Origin: Rhizobium leguminosarum
GTDB lineage: Bacteria; Pseudomonadota; Alphaproteobacteria; Rhizobiales; Rhizobiaceae
Length of the DNA: 64,000 bases
Reading direction: 5' to 3'
Assembly (NCBI RefSeq): GCF_001652265.1
Contig: NZ_LWBS01000450.1
Span: 1-64,000, forward strand
Positions 22,532-34,610 of this stretch are shown here, in pieces. Both the position numbers and the translations under genes were made by a program. Under the pieces are notes generated by a model. It saw nothing but the letters and a program-made list of their open reading frames with translations. It had not been told where the DNA came from and searched no databases. How positions within the stretch are numbered: the first letter of the stretch is position 1; each line of letters begins with the position of its first letter.

Positions 22532-23482
22532 TCAGTTGATCAATCGCTGCGCGGTAAACTTGTCGGTAACAAGCATGTCGATGACCCCCACGCGGAGCGC
22601 GCCTGCAATCGCGTCAGTCTTTTTGGATCCGCCGGCAAGAGCAATGACCCGGTCCACTCGTTCGAGATCCTCAAGTGGAAGGCCGATAACCCGGTCGTCC
22701 AGAGGTGTCTTGACCGGCTTGCCGTTCTTGTCGAAGAAGCGAAGAGAAATATCGCCGACGGCTCCCGCTTCGGCGAGATCAGACAGTTCACGAGACGAAA
22801 AGATGTTGCCGGACCGTGCGAGAAGTTCGGAGGGTTCGACTGCTCCGATTCCGACAATCGCAAGCGTTATGCTGCCGAACAGGTCTATCGTCTCGCGAAC
22901 GAACGGGTCGGCCTGCATCAGAAGCTTTGCCTCTCTGGACGACGTAACGCCCTGCACGGCGAGCAGTTTCGGCTCGGCGCCAGTCAGCCGTGCAAGCCGC
23001 GTGGTAAGCTGCGTCGCATGCGTCTGCACTGAAGGATCCCCCATGCCTCCAAGGGTCTGGACGACGTATTTCGCCTGAGCGCTCTTCTGAGGATGAATAT
23101 TCTCGACCATCTTGAAAATGGTCTGGCTCCAACTCGAAACGCCGATGATCTCCCCTGGCGCAAGCGTCACCTCCAAGAGATGAGCCGCTGCCTCTCCGAT
23201 ACGGGCCATGATCGCTCCGTCCCGATCTTCCGTGCACTCAACGACGATCGCCTCCGGCAGATCGTATTTCTCGCGAAGCGCGCCCTCGAGCTCGCTGTAG
23301 GTGCCGGCGGGAGGGATCACGCTCGTTCGCACGATATCTTCAGCCTCGGCGCGCTTGAGCATGCGCGACACCGTCGCCTGCGACAGGCGAAGGTGCTGTG
23401 CGATCTCCGCCTGTCGCCGTCCCTCCATATGGTACATCTGGGCGACCCTTGAAATCAGGCGGAGTTCGTTAAGGCGAGTCAT
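22532..23482 (-). CDS. SorC/DeoR-type sugar-binding transcriptional regulator
   Basis: 316-residue regulator. The N-terminal HTH is VAQMYHMEGRRQAEIAQHLRLSQATVSRMLKRAEAEDIVR. The rest is the SorC sugar-phosphate-binding domain (about 60-315) with GSSKKTDAIAGALRVGVIDMLVTD at the end. It is the last gene of the minus-strand operon transketolase subunits-kinase-regulator. It probably senses a phosphorylated intermediate of that pathway and controls the divergent promoter region at 26863-27072. Confidence 0.9.
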   Translation of the reverse strand: MTRLNELRLISRVAQMYHMEGRRQAEIAQHLRLSQATVSRMLKRAEAEDIVRTSVIPPAGTYSELEGALREKYDLPEAIVVECTEDRDGAIMARIGEAAAHLLEVTLAPGEIIGVSSWSQTIFKMVENIHPQKSAQAKYVVQTLGGMGDPSVQTHATQLTTRLARLTGAEPKLLAVQGVTSSREAKLLMQADPFVRETIDLFGSITLAIVGIGAVEPSELLARSGNIFSSRELSDLAEAGAVGDISLRFFDKNGKPVKTPLDDRVIGLPLEDLERVDRVIALAGGSKKTDAIAGALRVGVIDMLVTDKFTAQRLIN

Positions 23483-23503
23483 CGCTAATCCCAGAGTGAA
23501 TTT

Positions 23504-24970
23504 TTATTCACCTTTAGCCTTTGTTTCGCGGGCCGTCGAGCGGGCAAGCGCATCATCCCAGGTATCGAGAAGCACTGCGCGATCCACGGGTTGCGGCTCA
23601 ATGATTTGCGTGTTTCGCGGCAACTCCGAGATAATCTGGAGATCGCTCCAAAAGCCGAGTGAAAGCCCCGCCAGATAAGCAGCCCCCAATGCCGACGCCT
23701 CGGGTGCTTCGCATTGGATTACCGGATGTTCGATGAGGTTCGAGACACACTGCATCAGAAAGCGGTTCTGGCTCGGTCCACCATCCACATAGAGCGCGCC
23801 AAGCTGGCCGCCGCTCTGTTCCCGCATGGCCGCTATCACGTCATGCACCTGAAAAGCGATGGAGTCGGTGACCGACCGAGCCATTTGCGCACGTGTCGTA
23901 TTGAAGTTGATCTGGGAGAACAGGGCACGGGCGTCGGCATTCCAGTAAGGTGCGCCCAGTCCCACGAATGCCGGCACGAAGCCAGGTCCGCCCGGCTCAG
24001 CGCTCGCCGCAAGTTCGACAAGGGCCGCTACATCCGCCAGGCCGAGAATCTCCGCCATCCAGGGAAGACTGGCGGCGCAAACGAGAATATTGCCTTCGAA
24101 AGCGAAAGTCGGCTTTCCCTCGATACGCCATGCGACGGTGGTTGTGACGCCGTTACGTGGAGGAATGAATCGCGGCAGCGTCGTCATTACCGAAGAGCCG
24201 GTTCCAAAGGTCACCTTCCCGTCGCCCGGCTTGAATGCTCCATGACCGAACAGGGCTGCGTGGCTGTCTCCGATCGCAGCCATTATCGGAGTGCCATCCG
24301 GCACCCCTGGCAATCCTTGCGTTCGGCCGAAATCGGCCGAACTGTCGAGTACCTTGGGCAGGAGCGCGATATCGACGCCGAAGATCTCGCCAAGTTCATC
24401 GCTCCATCTCTGCTCCCGGAGATCGAACAATTGGCTCCTGGCGGCATTCGAAGCGTCGCAAACATGCCGACGCCCGCCGGTCAAGCAGTGGACGAGCCAA
24501 CTGTCGACCGTTCCCAGCCGCACCGATCGCCCGGCCGGAATACGGTCGAGCAGCCATCGGAATTTCGAACCCGGAAACATCGGATCCAATGGCAGGCCTG
24601 TGAGCGCCTGCACACGGTCAAGGTGGCCTTCGGCAATGAGACGCTCGCAATCCTGTGCCGTACGACGGCACTGCCAGCTTACCACCGGTCCAAGCGCGTC
24701 TCCCGTTTCGGCGTCCCAGGCAGTGGCAGATTCGCGCTGGTTGGAAATGGCCACCGCCTCGATAGCCACATCGGGGCCAGCCTTCAGGCAGGCGTCGATC
24801 GCTTCGCAGACCGATGCGTAGAGCCTATTTGGGTCTTGCTCGACCCAACCCGGCTTCGGATAGGAAATGCCGACAGGAGCCGAACCTCTGCCGACGATTT
24901 CTCCCCTTTCGGAAACCAGAACCGCCTTTGAATTGGTCGTGCCCTGGTCGATTGCCAGAATTGCCCGCAT
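23504..24970 (-). CDS. FGGY-family carbohydrate kinase
   Basis: 488-residue sugar/polyol kinase most like glycerol kinase-type FGGY enzymes. The N-terminal phosphate loop is LAIDQGTTNSKAVL, with SNQRESATAWD and, in the second domain, the catalytic Asp in AAIGDSHAALFGHG and FGTGSSVM; YVDGGPSQNRFLMQ is near the C-terminus. The substrate is not evident: candidates are a ketose such as xylulose or apulose, or a tetrulose. It lies between transketolase subunits and the SorC regulator and should feed a ketose phosphate to the transketolase. Confidence 0.9.
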   Translation of the reverse strand: MRAILAIDQGTTNSKAVLVSERGEIVGRGSAPVGISYPKPGWVEQDPNRLYASVCEAIDACLKAGPDVAIEAVAISNQRESATAWDAETGDALGPVVSWQCRRTAQDCERLIAEGHLDRVQALTGLPLDPMFPGSKFRWLLDRIPAGRSVRLGTVDSWLVHCLTGGRRHVCDASNAARSQLFDLREQRWSDELGEIFGVDIALLPKVLDSSADFGRTQGLPGVPDGTPIMAAIGDSHAALFGHGAFKPGDGKVTFGTGSSVMTTLPRFIPPRNGVTTTVAWRIEGKPTFAFEGNILVCAASLPWMAEILGLADVAALVELAASAEPGGPGFVPAFVGLGAPYWNADARALFSQINFNTTRAQMARSVTDSIAFQVHDVIAAMREQSGGQLGALYVDGGPSQNRFLMQCVSNLIEHPVIQCEAPEASALGAAYLAGLSLGFWSDLQIISELPRNTQIIEPQPVDRAVLLDTWDDALARSTARETKAKGE

Positions 24971-25020
24971 TCTATCCTCCCCAGATCAGGTGGCGGCCGA
25001 GGCGACAAAAAGCGTCCCGG

Positions 25021-25083
25021 CTAGAGCAATTCCAGGAAAAGTGCCAAGCGGTTTTCCGTCCGGAATTGCGTAAGAACAAAAGT
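25021..25083. repeat. Dispersed rhizobial palindrome between transketolase and kinase genes
   Basis: GCAATTCC near 25026 and GGAATTGC near 25063 flank a GGAAAA...TTTTCC inner palindrome. The layout is typical of a repeat seen in many Rhizobium intergenic regions. Being inside the operon, its hairpin could process or attenuate the message. Confidence 0.55.
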
Positions 25084-25096
25084 CGCGCGATCCCAG

Positions 25097-26053
25097 TTAC
25101 TTGCGCCTGATCAGCGACTGCGCGGCGTCGGCGATTGCGGACGGCGCCATTCCGAATTCGTCGAGCAGGAACTCTGCCGAACCGGTCGGGGCGTAGACGC
25201 CGGGAACTCCAAGACGTTTCATCGGGACTGGGGCATTATCGACGACCACTTCGGCTACCGCGGAACCGAGCCCGCCAAAAATCGAATGCTCTTCGGCTGT
25301 GACGATCGCTCCGGTTTCCTTCGCCGCGGCGATAATAGCCTCCTCGTCGATCGGACGAACCGTTGCAAGGTTGAGCACCCTGGCATTGATGTCGCGGTCT
25401 GCGAGGATCTCGGCAGCCTTCAAGATGCGATGAGTCAAAGTGCCATTGGCAATAAGGGTGACGTCGGAACCCTGGCGAAGGAGGTTTGCCTTGCCGAGTT
25501 CGAACTTGTGATCCTCCGGAAGCAGATCCGGTACACCAACGCGAGACAGACGCAGGAAACAGGGCCCGTTGTAGGCCGCGGCCCACTCAACCGCAGCAGC
25601 GGTTTCGATGCGGTCACAAGGCGCAATGACCGGAAGATTTGGCAGAACCCGCAGCCAGGCGAAGTCTTCGATCGAGTGATGGGTCGGGCCGAGTTCGCCG
25701 TATGCCATTCCGGAAGAAATGCCGACCAGCTTGACGTTGGCATTCGAATACGAAATATCGGCCTTGATCTGCTCCAGCGACCGTCCCGTGAGAAACGGAG
25801 CAGCAGCGCACACGAACGGAAGGCGTCCGCCATTGGCGAGGCCTGCACCAACCCCCACCATGTTCTGCTCGGCGATGCCGACATTGACGAGGCGCCCTGC
25901 AAACTTCGCCTTGAAGCCGCCGAGCTTGGACGAACCGACGGAGTCGTTGCAGACGGCAACGACCGTCTCGTTTTCGGCTGCCAGCCGCTCAAGCGTAGCA
26001 GCGAATGCGTCGCGGCAATCGTAGAGCTTGGGTGGGTTTATTGGCGCGTTCAT
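25097..26053 (-). CDS. Transketolase, C-terminal subunit
   Basis: 318-residue protein carrying the pyrimidine-binding and C-terminal domains of transketolase. The catalytic glutamate region is VNVGIAEQNMVGVGAGLA and the C-terminal part VTAEEHSIFGGLGSAVAEVV. It pairs with the N-terminal subunit encoded just upstream, with TAATG stop/start overlap (1 base), implying translational coupling and a heteromeric enzyme. Split transketolases of this kind occur in sugar-specific loci such as D-apiose (apulose-4-phosphate transketolase). Confidence 0.93.
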   Translation of the reverse strand: MNAPINPPKLYDCRDAFAATLERLAAENETVVAVCNDSVGSSKLGGFKAKFAGRLVNVGIAEQNMVGVGAGLANGGRLPFVCAAAPFLTGRSLEQIKADISYSNANVKLVGISSGMAYGELGPTHHSIEDFAWLRVLPNLPVIAPCDRIETAAAVEWAAAYNGPCFLRLSRVGVPDLLPEDHKFELGKANLLRQGSDVTLIANGTLTHRILKAAEILADRDINARVLNLATVRPIDEEAIIAAAKETGAIVTAEEHSIFGGLGSAVAEVVVDNAPVPMKRLGVPGVYAPTGSAEFLLDEFGMAPSAIADAAQSLIRRK

Positions 26054-26862
26054 TACAGTGCCTCCGACAATTCTGCCAATGCAATTTCGTATTGTTCCTT
26101 ACTCGGTACCTTGTGGTGCCAGTCGACGCGGTCCTGCATGAACGATATTCCATGGCCTTTGTTGGTATGGGCGACGATGCAATGTGGTCTTGACCCCCGG
26201 TGTTCGAGCGCAGGAACGATTTCGCTCATATTGTTCCCGTTGATTTCGCTGACTTCCCAATCGAACGCTTCAAGCTTCGGACGAAGCGGGGCGAGATCGT
26301 TGGTTTCGGCCAGGGCGGCGCCCTGCTGGAACCTGTTGTGATCGATGACCAACGTCAAGTTATCGAGCTTGAACTGAGCTGCCGCCATGATCGCTTCCCA
26401 GTTTGAGCCCTCCTGCATCTCACCGTCGCCGGTGACGACATAGGTGTGATATTTCGCGCCTGAGAGCTTGGCGGCTATCGCCATTCCTACTGCGACCGGA
26501 AGACCGTGGCCGAGCGGCCCGGTATTCGTTTCGACGCCAGGAACCTTGTTGCAATTTGGATGCCCGTTCAGCCTCGAATGCGGCTGCAAGAAGGTGGAAA
26601 TCTCATCCTCCGGGATGAAGCCGCGTTTTGCGAGCGTTACATACAGCGCGCATGCCGTATGCCCCTTTGAAAGAACGAACCTGTCGCGGTCGGGATGTTT
26701 GGGCTGATCCGGCCAGACATTCAGCACACGAAAATAGAGAGCCGTCAAAATGTCGATGACCGACATCTCGCCGCCAATATGGCCGGCGCCCGCTTCAAAG
26801 ACCGCCTGGAGATCGCGCAATCGGATCTGGCGGGCGATGCGCTCAAGTTCTGTCGGATCCAT
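26053..26862 (-). CDS. Transketolase, N-terminal (thiamine diphosphate-binding) subunit
   Basis: 269-residue half of transketolase. It has the GHIGGEMS substrate loop, LSKGHTACALYVTLA, and the thiamine diphosphate motif GDGEMQEGSNWEAIMAA ending with DHNRFQQ. The start at 26862 is fixed by GGAGG five bases upstream; a longer frame to 26895 lacks this. It is the first gene of the minus-strand operon, so the transketolase is the most promoter-proximal enzyme of the locus. Confidence 0.93.
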   Translation of the reverse strand: MDPTELERIARQIRLRDLQAVFEAGAGHIGGEMSVIDILTALYFRVLNVWPDQPKHPDRDRFVLSKGHTACALYVTLAKRGFIPEDEISTFLQPHSRLNGHPNCNKVPGVETNTGPLGHGLPVAVGMAIAAKLSGAKYHTYVVTGDGEMQEGSNWEAIMAAAQFKLDNLTLVIDHNRFQQGAALAETNDLAPLRPKLEAFDWEVSEINGNNMSEIVPALEHRGSRPHCIVAHTNKGHGISFMQDRVDWHHKVPSKEQYEIALAELSEAL

Positions 26863-26873
26863 GAATTCCTCCG

Positions 26874-26905
26874 TGCATAAATATTCAATCATCAATATTT
26901 TTGCA
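26874..26905. promoter_or_regulatory. Operator-like inverted repeat upstream of the transketolase operon
   Basis: TGCATAAATATT (26874-26885) and AATATTTTTGCA (26894-26905) match as inverted repeats at 11 of 12 positions, with an 8-base spacer. It lies 11 bases upstream of the transketolase start, overlapping where its leader must be, and is a good candidate SorC-regulator site. Confidence 0.55.
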
Positions 26906-26969
26906 TAACAAGCCGATTAGTCAAGCCCCTTAAGGCGACCCTCAAGAGCACATGCCCGAAGAAACCTTA

Positions 26970-26998
26970 TTGACAGCTGAATAGCAAGTTGTTAATGA
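26970..26998 (+). promoter_or_regulatory. Probable promoter of the sugar ABC importer operon
   Basis: TTGACA (26970-26975) is followed after 17 bases by TAATGA (26993-26998). A perfect GAATAATTATTC palindrome at 27015-27026 sits just downstream and could be an operator. The importer permease gene starts at 27073 behind GGGAGGAG. Confidence 0.5.
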
Positions 26999-27072
26999 AT
27001 TTTCCAGCAGGCATGAATAATTATTCTACCCTGAGCAAATATCGGATACAAGCCTACGCATAGGGAGGAGCA

Positions 27073-28053
27073 ATGGTGGCGCTCGATATCAATGAACACA
27101 GGCTTTCGTCCGGCGCCTGGCTGAGCAAGCTCAAGGGAGCTACCGGCCCACTCGTGGGACTGCTCGCGCTGTGCGTCTTTCTGAGCCTCAGCACAGACAC
27201 GTTTCTTTCGGTTCGAAACGGCCTCAACATCCTCGACCAGATCACTGTTCTCGGCATCATGGCGGTGGGAATGACGTTCGTCATCCTGATCGGCGGCATC
27301 GATCTTTCCGTCGGCTCGGCACTTGCTCTCGCGATGATGGTCATGGGCTGGACTGCCAACGTCGCCGGTCTACCGTTGCCCGTCGGGATCGCCTTTGCGC
27401 TGCTCGCCTCGGCGGTATCAGGGCTGATCGTCGGACTTCTGGTGACGCAGTTCAGGGTTCCAGCCTTTATTGCCACCCTTGCGATGATGTCCGCGGCTCG
27501 CGGCGTTGCAAACATGATCACGGACGGCCAGCAAATCGTCGGCTTCCCCGACTGGTTCATGATGCTGGCGATCGATCGCCATTTCGGCATCATGACTGCC
27601 ACGGTATTCCTCATGCTTGCAGTTGTTCTTGCCGCGTGGCTTTTCCTGCACTTCCGGTCCGAAGGTCGCATGCTCTATGCGGTGGGCGGAAACGCCGAAG
27701 TCGCACGCCTGGCCGGTATCAACGTCCCGCTCGTGACGATAGCCGTCTATGTCGTAAGTGCCGTCCTTGCGGGGCTCGCAGGCATCGTGCTCGCCGCGCG
27801 GCTGGATTCCGTCCAGCCGTCCAGTGGTCTGGGTTATGAACTGGACACCATCGCTGCAGTCGTCATCGGCGGGACGTCGCTCTCCGGCGGCACGGGCGGC
27901 ATCGGTGGAACGCTGATCGGCGTCCTTATCATCGGTGTGCTTCGCAACGGTCTCAATCTTCTCAACGTCTCGCCGTTCCTGCAGCAGGTGATCATCGGCA
28001 TCGTCATCGTGCTCGCGGTCGGCGCGGAGACTATTCGTCGGCGTCGCGCCTGA
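27073..28053 (+). CDS. Sugar ABC transporter permease (RbsC-like)
   Basis: 326-residue inner-membrane protein of the BPD_transp_2 family with about ten spans. Typical blocks are DQITVLGIMAVGMTFVILIGGIDLSVGSALAL and YAVGGNAEVARLAGINV, with ELDTIAAVVIGGTSLSGGTGGIGGTLIGVLIIGVLRNGLNLLNV near the end. It forms the channel of a ribose/galactose-type importer and is the first gene of the plus-strand operon. The order permease-binding protein-ATPase differs from the usual rbs order. Confidence 0.93.
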   Translation: MVALDINEHRLSSGAWLSKLKGATGPLVGLLALCVFLSLSTDTFLSVRNGLNILDQITVLGIMAVGMTFVILIGGIDLSVGSALALAMMVMGWTANVAGLPLPVGIAFALLASAVSGLIVGLLVTQFRVPAFIATLAMMSAARGVANMITDGQQIVGFPDWFMMLAIDRHFGIMTATVFLMLAVVLAAWLFLHFRSEGRMLYAVGGNAEVARLAGINVPLVTIAVYVVSAVLAGLAGIVLAARLDSVQPSSGLGYELDTIAAVVIGGTSLSGGTGGIGGTLIGVLIIGVLRNGLNLLNVSPFLQQVIIGIVIVLAVGAETIRRRRA

Positions 28054-28171
28054 CGAGCAGGGTCCGCCGCGTTGGCGGACCCGGAATTCCGCCCCAAGAA
28101 TTTGGGTCGGATCAATACCCCGAGGGGGAGGACATACCCGAGGGTTCCATCAAACAACGGAGGAAAATACA

Positions 28172-29101
28172 ATGAAAATAGCGCGCACCATGCTCGCGTC
28201 TGCTGCACTGCTCGGCCTCATGCTCGGCCCCGTACATGCGGCGGAACTGAAGAAGCTCGGTCTGGCCGTTGCCAACCTTCAGGCAAACTTCTTCAACCAG
28301 ATCAAGCAATCGGTCGAAGCCGAAGCCAAGAAGCGCGGCATCGAAGTCATCACCGTCGACGCAAAGGGCGACGGGCCGACGCAGGTCAACCAGATCCAGG
28401 ACCTCCTGACCCAGAAAATCGACGCGCTGATCTACATTCCGGCAGGTGCGGCGGCTGCGACCGTTCCGGTCAAGCTCGCGAAGAGCGCTGGTATTCCGGT
28501 CGTGAACGTGGACCGCAACGCCGAGGGTGCACCCGGCGATACCTTCCTTGCAACGGATTCCGTCGCGTCTGCCAAGGCCGTGTGCGACTACATTCTGAAG
28601 GAAGCCGGCGGCAAGGGGAAGATGGTCATCATCCACGGCCAGAAGGGCACGACGCCGGAAGTCGATCGCTCGAAGGGCTGCGCTGAATCTCTCAAGGCAT
28701 ATCCGGACGTCAAGGTCGTCGCCGAACAGTTCTCGAACATCTGGAGCCAGGACGAAGGCTTCCAGATCATGCAGAATATGCTGCAGGCAAATCCTGATGT
28801 TTCCATCGTGTTCGCACAGGCCGACGGCCTCGCACTTGGCGCCGCGCAGGCGATCAAGGTCGCCAATCCGTCGCAGAAGATCGTGGTTGGCGGCTTCGAT
28901 GGCGACACCGCGGCTCTCGAAGCGCTCAGCAAGGGCGTCTTCAACGTAACGGCGACACAGCAGACGCAGAAGATGGGCCGCGATGCGGTCGAAAATGCCG
29001 CCAAGCTTGTTGCCGGAGAAAAGGTGCCCCCGGTGCAGCTTATGGATGCCACGCTGACCACCAAGGAAAACGTCGCAGGCTTCATCGCCACCCATCCGTA
29101 A
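28172..29101 (+). CDS. Sugar ABC transporter substrate-binding protein (RbsB-like)
   Basis: 309-residue periplasmic binding protein with a signal peptide (MLASAALLGLMLGPVHA). The Peripla_BP_4 fold shows LGLAVANLQANFFNQIKQSVEAEAKKRGIEV, PVVNVDRNAEGAPGDTFLATDS and VVGGFDGDTAALEAL. The ligand is a pentose-sized sugar or polyol, not further resolved. GGAGG precedes the start. It is cotranscribed with the permease and ATPase genes. Confidence 0.94.
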   Translation: MKIARTMLASAALLGLMLGPVHAAELKKLGLAVANLQANFFNQIKQSVEAEAKKRGIEVITVDAKGDGPTQVNQIQDLLTQKIDALIYIPAGAAAATVPVKLAKSAGIPVVNVDRNAEGAPGDTFLATDSVASAKAVCDYILKEAGGKGKMVIIHGQKGTTPEVDRSKGCAESLKAYPDVKVVAEQFSNIWSQDEGFQIMQNMLQANPDVSIVFAQADGLALGAAQAIKVANPSQKIVVGGFDGDTAALEALSKGVFNVTATQQTQKMGRDAVENAAKLVAGEKVPPVQLMDATLTTKENVAGFIATHP

Positions 29102-29129
29102 TGAAGTCGAGGTCTTGAGGAGGTGTGCC

Positions 29130-30608
29130 GTGACTGATCCAGTTCTTTCCCTGAGGGGCATATCCAAATGGTATGGGCCGCTCCAGGTTCTGAAGAATGT
29201 CAGCTTGGACGTCCATCCGGGCGAAGTGGTTGCACTTCTCGGTGAAAACGGAGCGGGCAAGTCAACGCTATCCGGCATCATCGCCGGGTCACGCACGCCG
29301 TCCGAAGGATCAATGACATGGCTGGGGCAGCCTTATGCCCCGGCCACCCCAAGGGAAGCGATCGACAAGGGCGTTGTCCTGATCCATCAGGAGCTGCAGC
29401 TTCTGCCGCAACTGTCGATCGCGGAAAACGTCTTCATCGGACGCTGGCCGATGAAGAACGGCGTCGTCGACCGCGCCCAGATGGTTCGCCGGGCCCAGGA
29501 CCAGCTCGCTCGCTTGAACCTTCACATCCCCGCAACGCGGACGGTCGCCGGCCTTTCCACGGCAAATCAGCAACTCATCGAGATCGCCAAGGCGCTGGCT
29601 CTCAACGCAAAGCTCCTGATCCTCGATGAGCCGACAGCCGCCCTTGGCGGCGCAGAGACGGAAGCTCTCTTCGAACAGGTTCGGAAGCTTCGCTCGGAAG
29701 GCGTCGGCATCATCTACATTTCCCACCGTATGGAAGAGATCAAGCAGATAACCGACCGGATCGTCGTTCTTCGTGACGGAGAGCGGGTGCAAGAATTCTC
29801 AGACAGCGCGACCCCGGTGCGAACGATTGTCGAGAGCATGGTCGGGCGCCCGCTTGACCGCCTGTTCCCTACCCTGCCGGTTCCGACAGATCGTCCGGTA
29901 CTCCAGGTGTCCGGGCTGAGCTCGCCGGACAACTCGTTCCGTGACGTTACCTTCGAGGTCCGGGCCGGGGAAATTCTGGGGATCGCCGGATTGGTCGGCG
30001 CCGGCCGCACCGAACTGGTGCGTGCGATTTCGGGAGCAGATCCAATCAGTGCTGGTTCGATCAAGCTGGAAGGCGAGGAACTCAGGCTGCGCGATCCAGC
30101 GGACGCGATCGCCAAGGGTATCGTGATGGTTCCGGAAGACCGCAAGGAGCAGGGCCTGATCGTCGGGCACCGGATCAGCGAGAACATTATCTACGCCAAT
30201 CTTGACAAACTCGGCGGCGGTTGGATCACGCCGCGCGTCAAGCGCTCCTTTGCAGAAAAAGCAGTTGCCAAGTTCGGGGTAAAGGGCCGTGCTGAACAGC
30301 ACGCCTCGGACCTGTCCGGCGGCAACCAGCAGAAGGTCGTGATCGCGAAATGGCTGATGCGCGATCCCAAGGTCGTCGTGCTCGACGAACCGACGAGAGG
30401 CATCGACGTCGGCGCCCGTGCGGGCATCTACGACATCATCGTCAATCTTGCCAAACAGGGCGTGGCGGTCATCGTCGTAAGTTCGGACCTCGAAGAAGTT
30501 CTCGGAGTCTCCAATCGCATTCTCGTGCTTGCGCAAGGCAAGCAGGCGGGGATTCTCAATCGTGACCAGGCAAATGACGTTTCGGTCATGGAGCTGGCTA
30601 CCATCTAA
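29130..30608 (+). CDS. Sugar ABC transporter ATP-binding protein (RbsA-like, two cassettes)
   Basis: 492-residue protein with two fused ABC domains. The first has GENGAGKST and a degenerate signature region LSTANQQLIEIAKAL with LLILDEPTAAL. The second has GLVGAGRTE and LSGGNQQKVVIAKWLM with VVLDEPTRGIDVGAR. The start is GTG at 29130 with GAGGAGG six bases upstream; an ATG at 29115 is less well placed. It energises the importer encoded by the two preceding genes. Confidence 0.94.
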   Translation: MTDPVLSLRGISKWYGPLQVLKNVSLDVHPGEVVALLGENGAGKSTLSGIIAGSRTPSEGSMTWLGQPYAPATPREAIDKGVVLIHQELQLLPQLSIAENVFIGRWPMKNGVVDRAQMVRRAQDQLARLNLHIPATRTVAGLSTANQQLIEIAKALALNAKLLILDEPTAALGGAETEALFEQVRKLRSEGVGIIYISHRMEEIKQITDRIVVLRDGERVQEFSDSATPVRTIVESMVGRPLDRLFPTLPVPTDRPVLQVSGLSSPDNSFRDVTFEVRAGEILGIAGLVGAGRTELVRAISGADPISAGSIKLEGEELRLRDPADAIAKGIVMVPEDRKEQGLIVGHRISENIIYANLDKLGGGWITPRVKRSFAEKAVAKFGVKGRAEQHASDLSGGNQQKVVIAKWLMRDPKVVVLDEPTRGIDVGARAGIYDIIVNLAKQGVAVIVVSSDLEEVLGVSNRILVLAQGKQAGILNRDQANDVSVMELATI

Positions 30609-30630
30609 ACAGACAGAGAAAGGAAGAGCG

Positions 30631-31419
30631 GTGTCCGACATCACTCTGAACGCCCCGAAGCTTTTCGATCTCAGCGGCCAGGTTGCCATCGTTACCGGAG
30701 CCGGAAGCGGTATTGGGCAGCGCATTGCCATCGGCCTTGCGCAATGCGGCGCCGACGTAGCGCTGCTCGACCGTCGAACCGACGACGGGCTGGCCAGGAC
30801 GGCTGAACATATTCGCGCCGCCGGCCGCCGCTCGATCCAGATCGCAGCGGATGTCACGAGCAAGTCTTCCCTTGGAGAGGCCGTAGCACGTACCGAAGCG
30901 GATCTCGGCATGCTGACGCTTGCAGTCAACGCTGCAGGCATCGCTAACGCGAACCCGGCGGAAGAGATGGAGGAGGATCAATATCAGACGTTGATGGATA
31001 TCAACCTCAAAGGCATCTTTCTTTCCTGCCAGGCCGAGACCCGCGCCATGTTGAAGAATGGACGCGGCTCCATCGTCAACATCGCCTCCATGTCGGGTGT
31101 GATCGTAAACCGGGGGCTGAACCAAGCGCACTATAACGCCTCCAAGGCGGGCGTGATCCATATGTCGAAGTCTATGGCGATGGAATGGGTCGACCGCGGC
31201 ATTCGCGTCAACACCATCTCCCCCGGATACACGGCAACGCCCATGAACACCCGCCCGGAGATGGTCCACCAGACCAAGCTCTTCGAAGAGCAGACGCCGA
31301 TGCAGCGCATGGCAACGGTCGATGAGATGGTCGGTCCGGCTGTGTTCCTGCTGTCGAATGCGGCAAGTTTCGTGACCGGCGTCGATCTTCTGGTCGACGG
31401 CGGTTTCTGCTGCTGGTGA
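30631..31419 (+). CDS. SDR-family oxidoreductase, probable sugar-alcohol dehydrogenase
   Basis: 262-residue classical short-chain dehydrogenase: VTGAGSGIGQRIA nucleotide loop, NAAG, catalytic Ser in VNIASMSG, and YNASKAG. The C-terminal ending GVDLLVDGGFCCW resembles polyol (sorbitol/xylitol/threitol-type) dehydrogenases. The start is GTG at 30631 behind AAAGGAAG. As the last intact gene of the importer operon it likely oxidises the imported polyol to a ketose, which the kinase and transketolase then process. Confidence 0.9.
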   Translation: MSDITLNAPKLFDLSGQVAIVTGAGSGIGQRIAIGLAQCGADVALLDRRTDDGLARTAEHIRAAGRRSIQIAADVTSKSSLGEAVARTEADLGMLTLAVNAAGIANANPAEEMEEDQYQTLMDINLKGIFLSCQAETRAMLKNGRGSIVNIASMSGVIVNRGLNQAHYNASKAGVIHMSKSMAMEWVDRGIRVNTISPGYTATPMNTRPEMVHQTKLFEEQTPMQRMATVDEMVGPAVFLLSNAASFVTGVDLLVDGGFCCW

Positions 31420-31594
31420 TGAGAAAGCTCATTGCCGCCGCTGGAAAGTGACCGGTCTCGCTTCCTCCCTGGCTGAGACCGAGGCGCTGAAGGGACTAAC
31501 GGGTACGACGGCGTGCGATATCGCCGTCTGCCCGCCCTTCGCGCTGATCGAACGGACGGAGGGCTCGGGCGTCGTCATCGGCGCTCAAGACTAC
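31419..31594 (+). pseudogene. tpiA: Truncated, frameshifted triose-phosphate isomerase remnant
   Basis: The ATG overlaps the SDR stop (TGATG). The frame reads MRKLIAA and is then shifted by one missing base near 31441. In the new frame WKVTGLASSLAETEALK and TACDIAVCPPFALIER with VIGAQD follow, matching residues about 1-70 of rhizobial TpiA (WKMNGL..., CDIAICPPF..., IGAQD). The remaining about 185 codons are absent. The remnant shows that this operon once ended with an isomerase gene, as tetritol (erythritol-type) loci of rhizobia do. Confidence 0.8.
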
Positions 31595-31684
31595 CTGAAT
31601 TCACGACGACCCGTTGAGTTCCAATAATGATCGCCTGCTAGGTCGCACCCAGATTTGCTGTTTATCGACGGACAAGGAAAGAGC

Positions 31685-32467
31685 ATGAAACGCTTTGAGC
31701 AGAAGACTGTCGTCATTACTGGGGGTAGCCGCGGCATCGGCGCCGCCATCGCACAACGTTTTGCGCGCGAGGGCGCCAATCTCGTCGTCTCGGCCAACGA
31801 GGAGCTGGTTCACGGCGTTGCCGAACAGATCCGGGCCGAAGGCGGCAAGGCGATCTCCTTCATCGGCGACGTCACCGACAAGGCGAGCGTCACCGCCCTC
31901 TACGATGCCGCCGAAAAGGAATTCGGCTCGGTCGACGTCTCGATTCAGAATGCCGGCGTCATCACCATTGCCCGCGTCGAGGACCTGACCGAAAGCGAGT
32001 GGGACAAGGTCATGGCCGTCAACACCAAGGGCGTCTTCCTCTGTGCCCAGGAGGCGATATCAAGAATGCGCAAGCACAAGCGCGGCGGTCGCATTATCAA
32101 CACCGCTTCCGGCCAGGCCCGTGACGGCTTCATCTACACCCCGCATTACGCCGCCTCGAAAATGGGGGTCGTCGGCATCACCCAGAGCCTGGCCAAGGAA
32201 GTCGCGACCGAGAAGATCACCGTCAACGCCTTCTGCCCCGGGATCATCGAGACCGACATGTGGGCCTATAACGACCAGGCCTGGGGCAAGCTGCTCGGCA
32301 ACTACTCCCCCGGCGAGCTGATGAAGGAATGGGTCGAAGGCATCCCGATGAAACGGGCCGGCTCCGGCGAGGATGTCGCCGGCCTGGTCACCTTCCTCGC
32401 CAGCGATGACGCCGCCTATATCACCGGCCAGACGATCAATGTCGACGGCGGCCTGATCATGTCCTGA
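31685..32467 (+). CDS. SDR-family oxidoreductase
   Basis: 260-residue classical short-chain dehydrogenase with TGGSRGIGAAIA, NAG, NTASGQ and YAASKMG; it ends TGQTINVDGGLIMS. It resembles meso-butanediol/sorbitol dehydrogenases. AAGGAAAG precedes the ATG at 31685. It follows the tpiA remnant on the same strand and may belong to the sugar locus as a second polyol dehydrogenase, or be independent. Confidence 0.88.
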   Translation: MKRFEQKTVVITGGSRGIGAAIAQRFAREGANLVVSANEELVHGVAEQIRAEGGKAISFIGDVTDKASVTALYDAAEKEFGSVDVSIQNAGVITIARVEDLTESEWDKVMAVNTKGVFLCAQEAISRMRKHKRGGRIINTASGQARDGFIYTPHYAASKMGVVGITQSLAKEVATEKITVNAFCPGIIETDMWAYNDQAWGKLLGNYSPGELMKEWVEGIPMKRAGSGEDVAGLVTFLASDDAAYITGQTINVDGGLIMS

Positions 32468-32662
32468 TGCAGGTCGCCCAAAAGTGCGCAGCTGTTTTGG
32501 GACAACGACATGTATGGAACAACAAACCACCAACGAAGCGCGGAACGCGACACGGTCGTCGCCTCCGTGTGAACAGTGTGTCCATCGGCGTTAGGGCAGC
32601 TTTGCATTTTTGCCCGGTCGAGAGACCTTGCCATCTGCCTGTTTTTGATCCTATCTTTGAAA

Positions 32663-32855
32663 TGTTCTCAGGGCGGGGTGCAATTCCCCACCGGCGGTAT
32701 CAGGAGCAATCCTGGAGCCCGCGAGCGCTTCCGGCACTACAGCGCCGCGCGTCTTTCAGACGCGCAAAGGACGCTGTAGAATTTTGAATTGCTGGAAGGT
32801 CAGCAGATCCGGTGAGATGCCGGAGCCGACGGTATAGTCCGGATGGAAGAGGACA
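32663..32855 (+). promoter_or_regulatory. FMN riboswitch (RFN element) upstream of ribB
   Basis: All conserved RFN blocks are present in order: CTCAGGGCGGGGTG, CCCCACCGGCGGT, GGAGCCCGCGAGCG, GGTCAGCAGATCCGGTG, GCCGGAGCCGACGGTATAGTC and CGGATGGAAGAGG. The terminal helix pairs TGTTCTC (32663) with GAGGACA (32849-32855). FMN binding should repress ribB, located 130 bases downstream; no clear T-tract terminator is seen, so control at translation initiation is more likely. A dispersed repeat occupies the variable arm. Confidence 0.92.
32735..32794. repeat. Rhizobial mosaic repeat nested in the FMN riboswitch
   Basis: CTACAGCG (32737-32744) pairs with CGCTGTAG (32772-32779) around a perfect GCGCGTCT-TTC-AGACGCGC hairpin (32747-32765), followed by TTTTGAATTGCTG. 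This is the reverse complement of the unit at 14305-14350. It sits in the variable stem between the conserved GCGAGCG and GTCAGCAG blocks and so should leave the aptamer core foldable. Confidence 0.82.
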
Positions 32856-32984
32856 ATACGGGCAGTCGCACTCCATCCCGGAGTCGGCTGACGTTTGTTC
32901 GCCCAAGGGCAGAAGGCTCGCTCACGGATTGAGCCGAGCAGACCATGTCAGCCCGCTGACATAACCCTTGAAAGGCTAGACAGC

Positions 32985-33620
32985 ATGACTATCGCAACAA
33001 TTGAAGATGCCATATCAGCCATTGCCAGCGGCAAGATGGTCGTCGTCGTCGACGACCAGAACCGGGAAAACGAAGGCGATATCGTGGTCGCGGCCGATGC
33101 CGTCACCCCGGAAACAATCGCCTTCATGATGACCCACGCCCGCGGTCTCGTCTGCATCGCCATGGAAGGCGAGCGTCTCGATGCGCTCGATATTCCGCTG
33201 ATGGTGCCCAACAACACGGAATCGCACAAAACTGCCTTCACGGTCTCCGTCGACTATCTCAAGGACACAACGACCGGCATCTCGGCAGCCGACCGCGCCG
33301 CCACTGTCCGCGCCCTGGTCGACGATCGGGCACAGCCCGCCGATTTCGCTCGCCCCGGCCATATCTTTCCGCTGCGAGCCAATCCCCGCGGCGTGCTCGG
33401 CCGCCCTGGCCACACCGAAGCCGCCGTCGATCTCGCCCGCCTCGCCGGCAAGACCGCGGCTGGCGTCATCTGCGAAGTCGCCAATGACGACGGAACCATG
33501 TCCCGCCTCCCCGACCTCACTCTTTTCGCCAAACGCCATAACCTCCTCCTCGTCACCATAGAGGACCTGGTTGCCTATCTCGAACGCCAGGCGGCAAAAG
33601 ACATACGCGAAGTCGCCTGA
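32985..33620 (+). CDS. ribB: 3,4-dihydroxy-2-butanone 4-phosphate synthase
   Basis: Makes the four-carbon unit of riboflavin from ribulose 5-phosphate. The 211-residue length fits a stand-alone RibB without the GTP cyclohydrolase II domain. Conserved DDQNRENEGDIV, FMMTHARGLVC, TGISAADRA, RPGHIFPLRA and GHTEAAVDLARLAG are all present. The start at 32985 follows GAAAGG; the frame is open upstream through the riboswitch but homology begins here. Expression should fall at high FMN through the upstream riboswitch. Confidence 0.96.
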   Translation: MTIATIEDAISAIASGKMVVVVDDQNRENEGDIVVAADAVTPETIAFMMTHARGLVCIAMEGERLDALDIPLMVPNNTESHKTAFTVSVDYLKDTTTGISAADRAATVRALVDDRAQPADFARPGHIFPLRANPRGVLGRPGHTEAAVDLARLAGKTAAGVICEVANDDGTMSRLPDLTLFAKRHNLLLVTIEDLVAYLERQAAKDIREVA

Positions 33621-33842: not shown

Positions 33843-34610
33843 TTATGTCCGGCTGATCGAAACCCCACCGTCCGCCAGCATCGCCGTGCCGGTCACGAAG
33901 CTCGACATGTCGGAGGCGAGGAAGAGCGCCGCATTGGCGATCTCTTCGGGTTGCGCCATGCGTTTCAGCGCATGCAGTCCCTCCACGAAGGCCAGGACTT
34001 CCGGCGTGGCGTCCGGCGCGTTGGTGATGCTCATCGGCGTGTCGGTGCCGCCGGGAAGCAGTGCGTTGACGCGGATGTTCTGCCTCCCGAGTTCGGCGGC
34101 GAGCACCTGCACGAGACCAATCAGCCCCGCCTTGCTGGCGGCATAAGCGGCCATGCCCGGCATGCCGGCAGTGTGGCCGACGAAAGTCGAGGTGAAGATC
34201 AGCGATCCCCCGCGCGCTCCCATCGCCGCCGCTTGGTGCTTGGCGCCGAGGAAGGCGGCGGTGAGGTTGGTCTCGATCGTCTCGCGCCAGGCCTCCAGCG
34301 AAAGTCCCGTCACCGGCCCCATCTCGCCGATGACGCCGGCATTGTTGAAGGCGATATCGAGCCCGCCGAAGCGCGAGACCGCCGTTTCGGTAAGCCTCGC
34401 CTGGAGCGCCTCGTCCTTGACATCGCCTGATATGGCGACTGCCTGCCCGCCCTCCGCTTCGATTTCGGCAATGACGGCATTAAGTGCTTCCTGCCGCCGG
34501 CCGTTGACCACGAGTTTCGCGCCTTCCCGGGCAAAGAGTTTCGCCGCCGCGCGGCCGATGCCGGAGCTTGCGCCGGTGATGATGGCGATCTTGCCGTTCA
34601 GAAGTGTCAT
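33843..34610 (-). CDS. SDR-family oxidoreductase
   Basis: 255-residue classical short-chain dehydrogenase: ITGASSGIGRAAA, NNAG, IFTSTFVG (Ser) and YAASKAG, ending GTAMLADGGVSISRT. The substrate is unknown; similar proteins are often named glucose 1-dehydrogenase or 3-oxoacyl reductase-like. It is divergent from the DMT transporter across 340 bases (34611-34950), in which no gene or clear motif was seen. Confidence 0.88.
   Translation of the reverse strand: MTLLNGKIAIITGASSGIGRAAAKLFAREGAKLVVNGRRQEALNAVIAEIEAEGGQAVAISGDVKDEALQARLTETAVSRFGGLDIAFNNAGVIGEMGPVTGLSLEAWRETIETNLTAAFLGAKHQAAAMGARGGSLIFTSTFVGHTAGMPGMAAYAASKAGLIGLVQVLAAELGRQNIRVNALLPGGTDTPMSITNAPDATPEVLAFVEGLHALKRMAQPEEIANAALFLASDMSSFVTGTAMLADGGVSISRT

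Follow-up and report, generated by a model that had tools for sequence, protein, structure and literature searches.

A short-chain dehydrogenase pair in place of an isomerase at a split-transketolase locus of Rhizobium leguminosarum, a candidate route for apiose, a branched pentose, or for apiitol, its alcohol

Which substrate is served by a sugar locus that has a split transketolase and a kinase and no isomerase, and how would that substrate be brought into the form that the kinase accepts? The question is raised by a locus of Rhizobium leguminosarum (assembly GCF_001652265.1) within the first 64,000 nucleotides of contig NZ_LWBS01000450.1, the whole stretch analysed here, which we call the window. 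The locus spans positions 22532-32467 and consists of two divergent operons flanking a 210-base intergenic region. The minus-strand operon encodes, in this order, the N-terminal and C-terminal halves of a transketolase (TKN and TKC), an FGGY kinase and a SorC/DeoR regulator, and the plus-strand operon encodes a permease, a binding protein, a double ATPase, a short-chain dehydrogenase/reductase (SDR1), a tpiA remnant and a second SDR (SDR2), beyond which lie a flavin mononucleotide (FMN) riboswitch and a stand-alone ribB. We favour, with modest confidence, a role in importing and degrading apiose, a branched pentose widespread in plant cell walls and flavonoids, and/or apiitol, the corresponding alcohol; the pathway would proceed through the SDR pair, the kinase and the split transketolase.

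The initial annotation had boxed positions 22532-31594, and the features that it named are all present there, including the divergent operons, the FGGY kinase, the dead tpiA, a dedicated transketolase in two halves, of the type that acts in apulose-4-phosphate metabolism, and an SDR step where an isomerase would be expected, no isomerase being found in the locus. It had also asked beforehand whether the transketolase pair might be the only housekeeping one, and it is not, as two full-length transketolases are encoded elsewhere in the genome. Its overall interpretation holds for the transketolase, the kinase and the SDR step; it overlooked the second SDR, and its box is too short because SDR2 is part of the locus. 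The substrate, which it left unassigned with tetritols and pentitols among the candidates, can be narrowed further: every enzyme of the locus is matched by one in the apiose cluster of E. coli SE15 (ECSF_RS02670-RS02715; identities in Table 1), so that the assignment to a branched pentose is well supported and tetritols and linear pentitols are not the favoured candidates.

In the sections of PMC13001218 available to us, a D-apiose cluster is described from E. coli ST131/ST14 as well as from E. fergusonii, the tested cluster-positive strains grew on D-apiose and K-12 did not, and the cluster is without the Pectobacterium isomerase gene apsI, two putative oxidoreductases being hypothesised as its replacement; these sections report no SDR knock-out. 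The idea that SDRs stand in for the isomerase is therefore already published as a hypothesis for E. coli. The Rhizobium locus shares with the E. coli ST131/ST14 cluster two orthologous SDRs, an FGGY kinase, a split transketolase, a SorC-type regulator and an Rbs-type ABC importer, and differs from it in the clade of its binding protein, in having no DUF2291 gene, in the tpiA remnant within the operon and in gene order. The importer proteins are the least similar (permease 35%, ATPase 37%, binding protein 25% identity), and the E. coli AptA is itself 79-81% identical to Pectobacterium proteins among the matches listed. The Pectobacterium route known as D-apiose degradation I, reportedly described by Carter et al. 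in 2018, is said to consist of the isomerase ApsI, the kinase AplK and the transketolase AptA/AptB; the Rhizobium locus resembles it in the kinase and the split transketolase, which adjoin each other, and differs in having two SDRs in the place of the isomerase. By the orthology of its kinase, transketolase and SDRs the locus is predicted to be a version of this AptAB pathway, although it is not one by isomerase or by binding protein.

The gene set is not a chance assembly, given how nearly universal its co-occurrence is in the best 80 of 578 loci anchored on SDR1, whose best relatives are from Rhizobium species. SDR2 is present in all 80 of these loci, and 78 have in addition both transketolase halves, the kinase and the regulator; the two exceptions are L089, which is cut by a contig end, and L126, where the match to TKN is split into two pieces.

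If the SDR pair does the work of an isomerase, the two should replace each other among related loci. Searches with TKN covered genomes of the order (297), the phylum (398) and the class (385), and a search with the E. coli protein covered 197 genomes of the order of G442, these sets overlapping. They yielded 69 loci besides the window, of which 13 without a kinase served as a control and 56 had both transketolase halves and the kinase inside the fetched stretch (20 kb in most); twelve match rows of the first search and one other were left out, ten of the twelve at 43-46% identity, and the rows left out include a second copy in G175 (51%) and a partial match in G005 (55%). The entry module was SDR1 with SDR2 in 31 of the 56 loci, a FucI-like isomerase (PF02952) in 16, a xylose-isomerase-like triose-phosphate isomerase (TIM) barrel (PF01261) in five and none nearby in four, and no locus of the 56 had two kinds. 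At E <= 1e-30, a whole-genome search found no FucI-like isomerase in any of 32 SDR genomes. Of the four genomes with no module nearby, three have an isomerase elsewhere (G203, 65%; G452, 46%; G634, 85%), and G1117 has just a 28% match.

On a quick tree of TKN, TKC and kinase with 58 rows, the window and SE15 included, the SDR label changes seven times, against a mean of 19 for shuffled labels, and SDR versus isomerase changes six times, with the FucI loci L042 and L064 nested among SDR loci. Over six independent pairs on starred branches, a test from which L185 was excluded, the isomerase changed in the opposite direction in 5.2 on average, showed no difference in 0.8 and never changed in parallel. 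On this tree the entry module was swapped at least six times.

The FucI-like protein that replaces the SDR pair is about 487 residues long (L055, L060, L062-L066, L176, L177, L180 and others among the 16) and probably represents a second, unnamed family of apiose-type isomerases. Behind the TIM-barrel isomerase of L059 and L061 stands a nucleoside-hydrolase-like gene (PF01156 by a scan of the L061 copy).

The two SDRs carry different cofactor signatures. In SDR1, an Asp closes the second strand (beta-2) and a Ser precedes the GIG motif in 113 of 113 sequences, whereas in SDR2 an Arg or Lys precedes GIG in 112 of 113 and an acidic residue ends the strand in one; the catalytic N, S, Y and K are invariant across both sets. 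Under the classical SDR rules such residues mark NAD(H) and NADP(H) enzymes, respectively, and on this basis SDR1 would use NAD(H) and SDR2 NADP(H). The nearest solved relatives of SDR1 include galactitol, sorbitol and putative polyol dehydrogenases. The economical order would then be the reduction of apiose to apiitol with NADPH followed by the oxidation of apiitol to apulose with NAD+. This resembles the fungal route in which xylose reductase and xylitol dehydrogenase perform an NADPH reduction and then an NAD+ oxidation without isomerisation, although the substrate is another one and the enzyme families are in part different.

The kinase signature points in the same direction. In all 58 kinases of these loci, AplK and that of the window included, the Gln-Gln pair of three of three GlpK is replaced by Ser-His and the Tyr135 of GlpK by Met or Leu; we take these positions to be Q246/Q247 and Y135 of the glycerol site of E. 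coli GlpK. By this signature the kinase belongs with AplK rather than with GlpK. The three GlpK form a clade of their own (support 100). Placing all 58 kinases in one clade is compatible with the data (p of the approximately unbiased test 0.48), that is, neither rejected nor proven.

From these components a route can be proposed in which the SorC-type regulator would control both divergent operons. In the cytoplasm SDR2 would reduce apiose to apiitol with NADPH and SDR1 would oxidise apiitol at C2 with NAD+ to give apulose, two redox steps that would together be equivalent to the isomerase used elsewhere. The kinase would convert apulose to apulose-4-phosphate, from which the split transketolase would transfer two carbons to glyceraldehyde-3-phosphate; the products would be xylulose-5-phosphate and dihydroxyacetone phosphate (DHAP). 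This reaction is reportedly established for AptAB. Triose-phosphate isomerase would regenerate the acceptor. Of the 80 SDR1-anchored loci, 19 have a frame for it (tpiA) directly behind SDR1, near full length in 17 (L108 is short, 167 aa, and L133 is cut by a contig end), and so do L036 and L159, which fits DHAP as a product to be turned back into the acceptor. In the window the gene has been lost and two copies are found elsewhere in the genome: the remnant overlaps the SDR1 stop, has a stop of its own after 10 codons and retains about 55-70 recognisable codons of about 254. With the tpiA of 21 relatives as queries, tblastn gave 54-66% identity over 54-70 codons for 18 and 35-41% for L133, L153 and L159.

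Several observations weigh against this reading. The kinase and the transketolase halves are just 39-48% identical to their E. coli counterparts, and by raw similarity the kinase is as near to the GlpK of its own genome as to AplK (40% each). Among the matches listed, the only NCBIfam models passed are the generic SDR ones (SDR1, SDR2) and that for ribB. As to the exchange of modules, the sign test on the independent pairs is borderline (median p 0.0625), two of the 80 SDR1-anchored loci also have a FucI-like isomerase (L120 at the edge, L146 beside SDR1), one of the 32 SDR genomes (G435) has a close TIM-barrel isomerase (62%) away from its SDR pair, and four others have TIM-barrel paralogues at 32-35%, including the Rhizobium genome itself at 35% (whole-genome searches, E <= 1e-30). 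The binding protein of the window does not belong to the clade of binders found alongside the isomerases and the E. coli SDRs, and Ala replaces both N13 and N190 in 21 of 21 aligned sequences of its type, the other ribose contacts, in the list that we assume for this protein, being mostly kept. Finally, apiose may already be served by a second, apiose-type locus in the same genome.

These last points bear most on the imported ligand. Two clades of binding protein are seen: the window type (at least 55% identity) occurs in 28 of 31 SDR loci, in none of the 25 others and in 80 of 80 SDR1-anchored loci, and the E. coli type (at least 40%) in 15 of 16 FucI loci, four of five TIM-barrel loci, two of four loci with no module and four of 31 SDR loci. 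The nearest solved structures of the E. coli apiose-cluster binder are 5ibq and 4ry0, of which 4ry0 bears the name of the R. etli binder RHE_PF00037 in its title and 5ibq is presumably its apiose complex; the E. coli ribose binder and both apiose-type binders carry Asn at positions N13 and N190. In the Rhizobium genome the near relative of 5ibq/4ry0 is encoded not at our locus but on contig C439 (L195, G000:C439:60000-79999), together with a RuBisCO-like protein, an SBD_N/NBD_C kinase-type protein, DUF2291, a GFO/IDH/MocA dehydrogenase and Dak1/Dak2. This gene set looks like an oxidative apionate route of the R. etli type, which reportedly uses a RuBisCO-like protein; it would share an apiose-type substrate with the present locus, and differs in being a separate locus with no transketolase or FGGY kinase among the C439 genes scanned. 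The structural model of the window binder is confident (predicted local distance difference test score 88), matches many Rbs-like structures about equally and does not tell the ligands apart. With the altered pocket and the importer at C439, apiitol is a serious candidate for the imported compound.

It is a rather unlikely, though not negligible, alternative that apiitol is the sole or main import substrate, SDR1 alone supplying apulose and SDR2 acting on another stereoisomer or a side substrate. A binder unlike the ribose and apiose types and found with the SDR pair only would fit this, as would the achirality of apulose, by which D- and L-apiitol would both reach it. On the other hand, SDR2 is never missing from the SDR1-anchored loci, the SDR pair replaces isomerases, which are enzymes acting on aldoses, and apiose supports the growth of E. 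coli, which combines the pair with an apiose-type binder, according to the available sections of PMC13001218. Both importer types are present in L048, L173 and L146, the last of which also has the SDR pair and FucI; this counts for apiitol, and suggests two related ligands feeding one route.

That the locus serves some other sugar or polyol, such as another branched or C4-C6 aldose, by the same logic of aldose to ketose, kinase and transketolase, is in our view unlikely. The modest identity of kinase and transketolase and the different binder clade would allow it, but SDR1, SDR2 and the regulator share 65%, 63% and 44% identity with the E. coli apiose proteins, and the kinase has its signature in common with AplK. 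That the locus simply takes up ribose or xylose, with housekeeping enzymes as accessories, is very improbable: ribose systems are indeed the best matches of the binding protein and permease, and arabinose, xylose and ribose systems those of the ATPase, but no ribokinase or xylose isomerase is among the locus genes, the genome has two other transketolases and the binder has lost N13 and N190 to Ala. Sulfoquinovose degradation by a SqwGH-type split sulfo-transketolase is scarcely credible, since for all that SqwGH is also a two-subunit transketolase (PMC11659671, available sections) and that a sulfoquinovose isomerase model is the nearest NCBIfam model to the FucI-like isomerase of a sister locus (83.7 bits, far below the 700-bit cut-off), the route described in those sections is kinase-free while our locus has a kinase, and the ten proteins scanned at our locus gave no Pfam or NCBIfam match to sulfonate metabolism and no sulfosugar isomerase.

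The 13 of 69 split transketolases without a kinase (L067-L074, L175, L181-L183, L186) are at 42-48% identity, and L186, which has a FucI-like isomerase beside the split transketolase, could be a sulfo-transketolase locus.

Table 1. Features of the apiose/apiitol candidate locus and its riboflavin-gene neighbours in the window
Feature	Coordinates	Strand	Evidence
SorC/DeoR-type sugar-binding transcriptional regulator (REG)	22532..23482	-	PF04198, 218 bits; 44% to E. coli SE15 apiose-cluster regulator
FGGY kinase (KIN), GlpK branch; likely apulose kinase, AplK-like	23504..24970	-	PF00370/PF02782; 40% to E. coli AplK
Transketolase C-terminal half (TKC), AptB-like	25097..26053	-	PF02779 + PF02780; 41% to E. 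coli AptB
Transketolase N-terminal half (TKN), AptA-like	26053..26862	-	PF00456; 48% to E. coli AptA
Shared divergent intergenic region, possible operator	26863..27072		imperfect inverted repeats
Rbs-type ABC permease	27073..28053	+	PF02653
Rbs-type periplasmic binding protein	28172..29101	+	PF13407; nearest solved structure 2ioy
Double ABC ATPase, RbsA/AraG type	29115..30608	+	two PF00005 stretches
SDR1, NAD-type dehydrogenase; putative apiitol 2-dehydrogenase (to apulose)	30631..31419	+	NF004774 above cut-off; 65% to ECSF_RS02670
tpiA remnant, truncated with early stop	31419..31591	+	tblastn with tpiA of 21 relatives
SDR2, NADP-type dehydrogenase; putative apiose reductase (to apiitol)	31685..32467	+	63% to ECSF_RS02675
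FMN riboswitch RF00050, ahead of neighbouring ribB	32660..32858	+	113.2 bits against a gathering score of 66.2
Stand-alone ribB, recurrent neighbour; candidate pathway member only	32985..33620	+	TIGR00506 over cut-off

The start of TKN was placed by its ribosome site GGAGGAATTC, and SDR1 starts with a GTG behind AAGGAAGAG. Just upstream of the transketolase start lies an imperfect inverted repeat, TGCATAAATATT / AATATTTTTGCA, whose 12-nt arms (26874-26885 and 26894-26905) are 92% complementary; the repeat, at 26874-26905, is a possible operator. A third SDR gene (33843-34610, minus strand), conserved in L035 after SDR2, lies outside the wider locus as far as seen.

The riboflavin gene beside the locus is a recurrent neighbour. 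In 13 of the 56 loci, belonging to 11 family codes, a distance of 65-645 bp separates ribB or ribH from the nearest core match (L036, L038, L039, L040, L046, L048, L051, L056, L057, L064, L159, L179 and L180, besides 32660-33620 of the window); these are ten of 31 SDR loci, three of 16 FucI loci and none of nine others, with nine of the neighbours placed tail-to-tail and four downstream on the same strand. At the kinase-less split-transketolase loci the count is 0 of 13, a small control unmatched by lineage. Among the 80 SDR1-anchored loci, many of them close relatives, ribB is present in 40 and ribH in four. Where ribH lies at the locus, which is so in eight genomes, the genome always encodes another ribH elsewhere; the Rhizobium genome has ribB at the locus, another PF00926 gene plus a short fragment elsewhere, and two ribH, neither of them at the locus. 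When seven of the 13 rib-flanked loci and the window were scanned, an FMN riboswitch was found in five of the seven (L048 and L040 being negative) and in the window. An isolated RFN-controlled ribH2 is described from Brucella and relatives in PMC2828483, the available sections of which do not contain the words 'erythritol', 'neighbor' or 'adjacent'.

A possible explanation starts from the chemistry of the pathway. RibB, the 3,4-dihydroxy-2-butanone 4-phosphate (DHBP) synthase, forms a branched intermediate from ribulose-5-phosphate, and as apulose-4-phosphate resembles this intermediate it could inhibit the DHBP step. An extra RibB under FMN-riboswitch control, or a second RibH, beside these loci might then serve as self-protection against apulose-4-phosphate, a speculation that we consider quite doubtful.

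What is new here is the spread of the SDR pair, which occurs in many rhizobia and also in Rhodobacteraceae and other groups, its recurrent exchange with isomerases of two unrelated families, and the split in cofactor signature between its members. The locus gives each of its enzymes an assignable hypothesis, in which isomerisation would be achieved by a reductase/dehydrogenase pair, and the link to riboflavin genes presents a fresh and testable puzzle.

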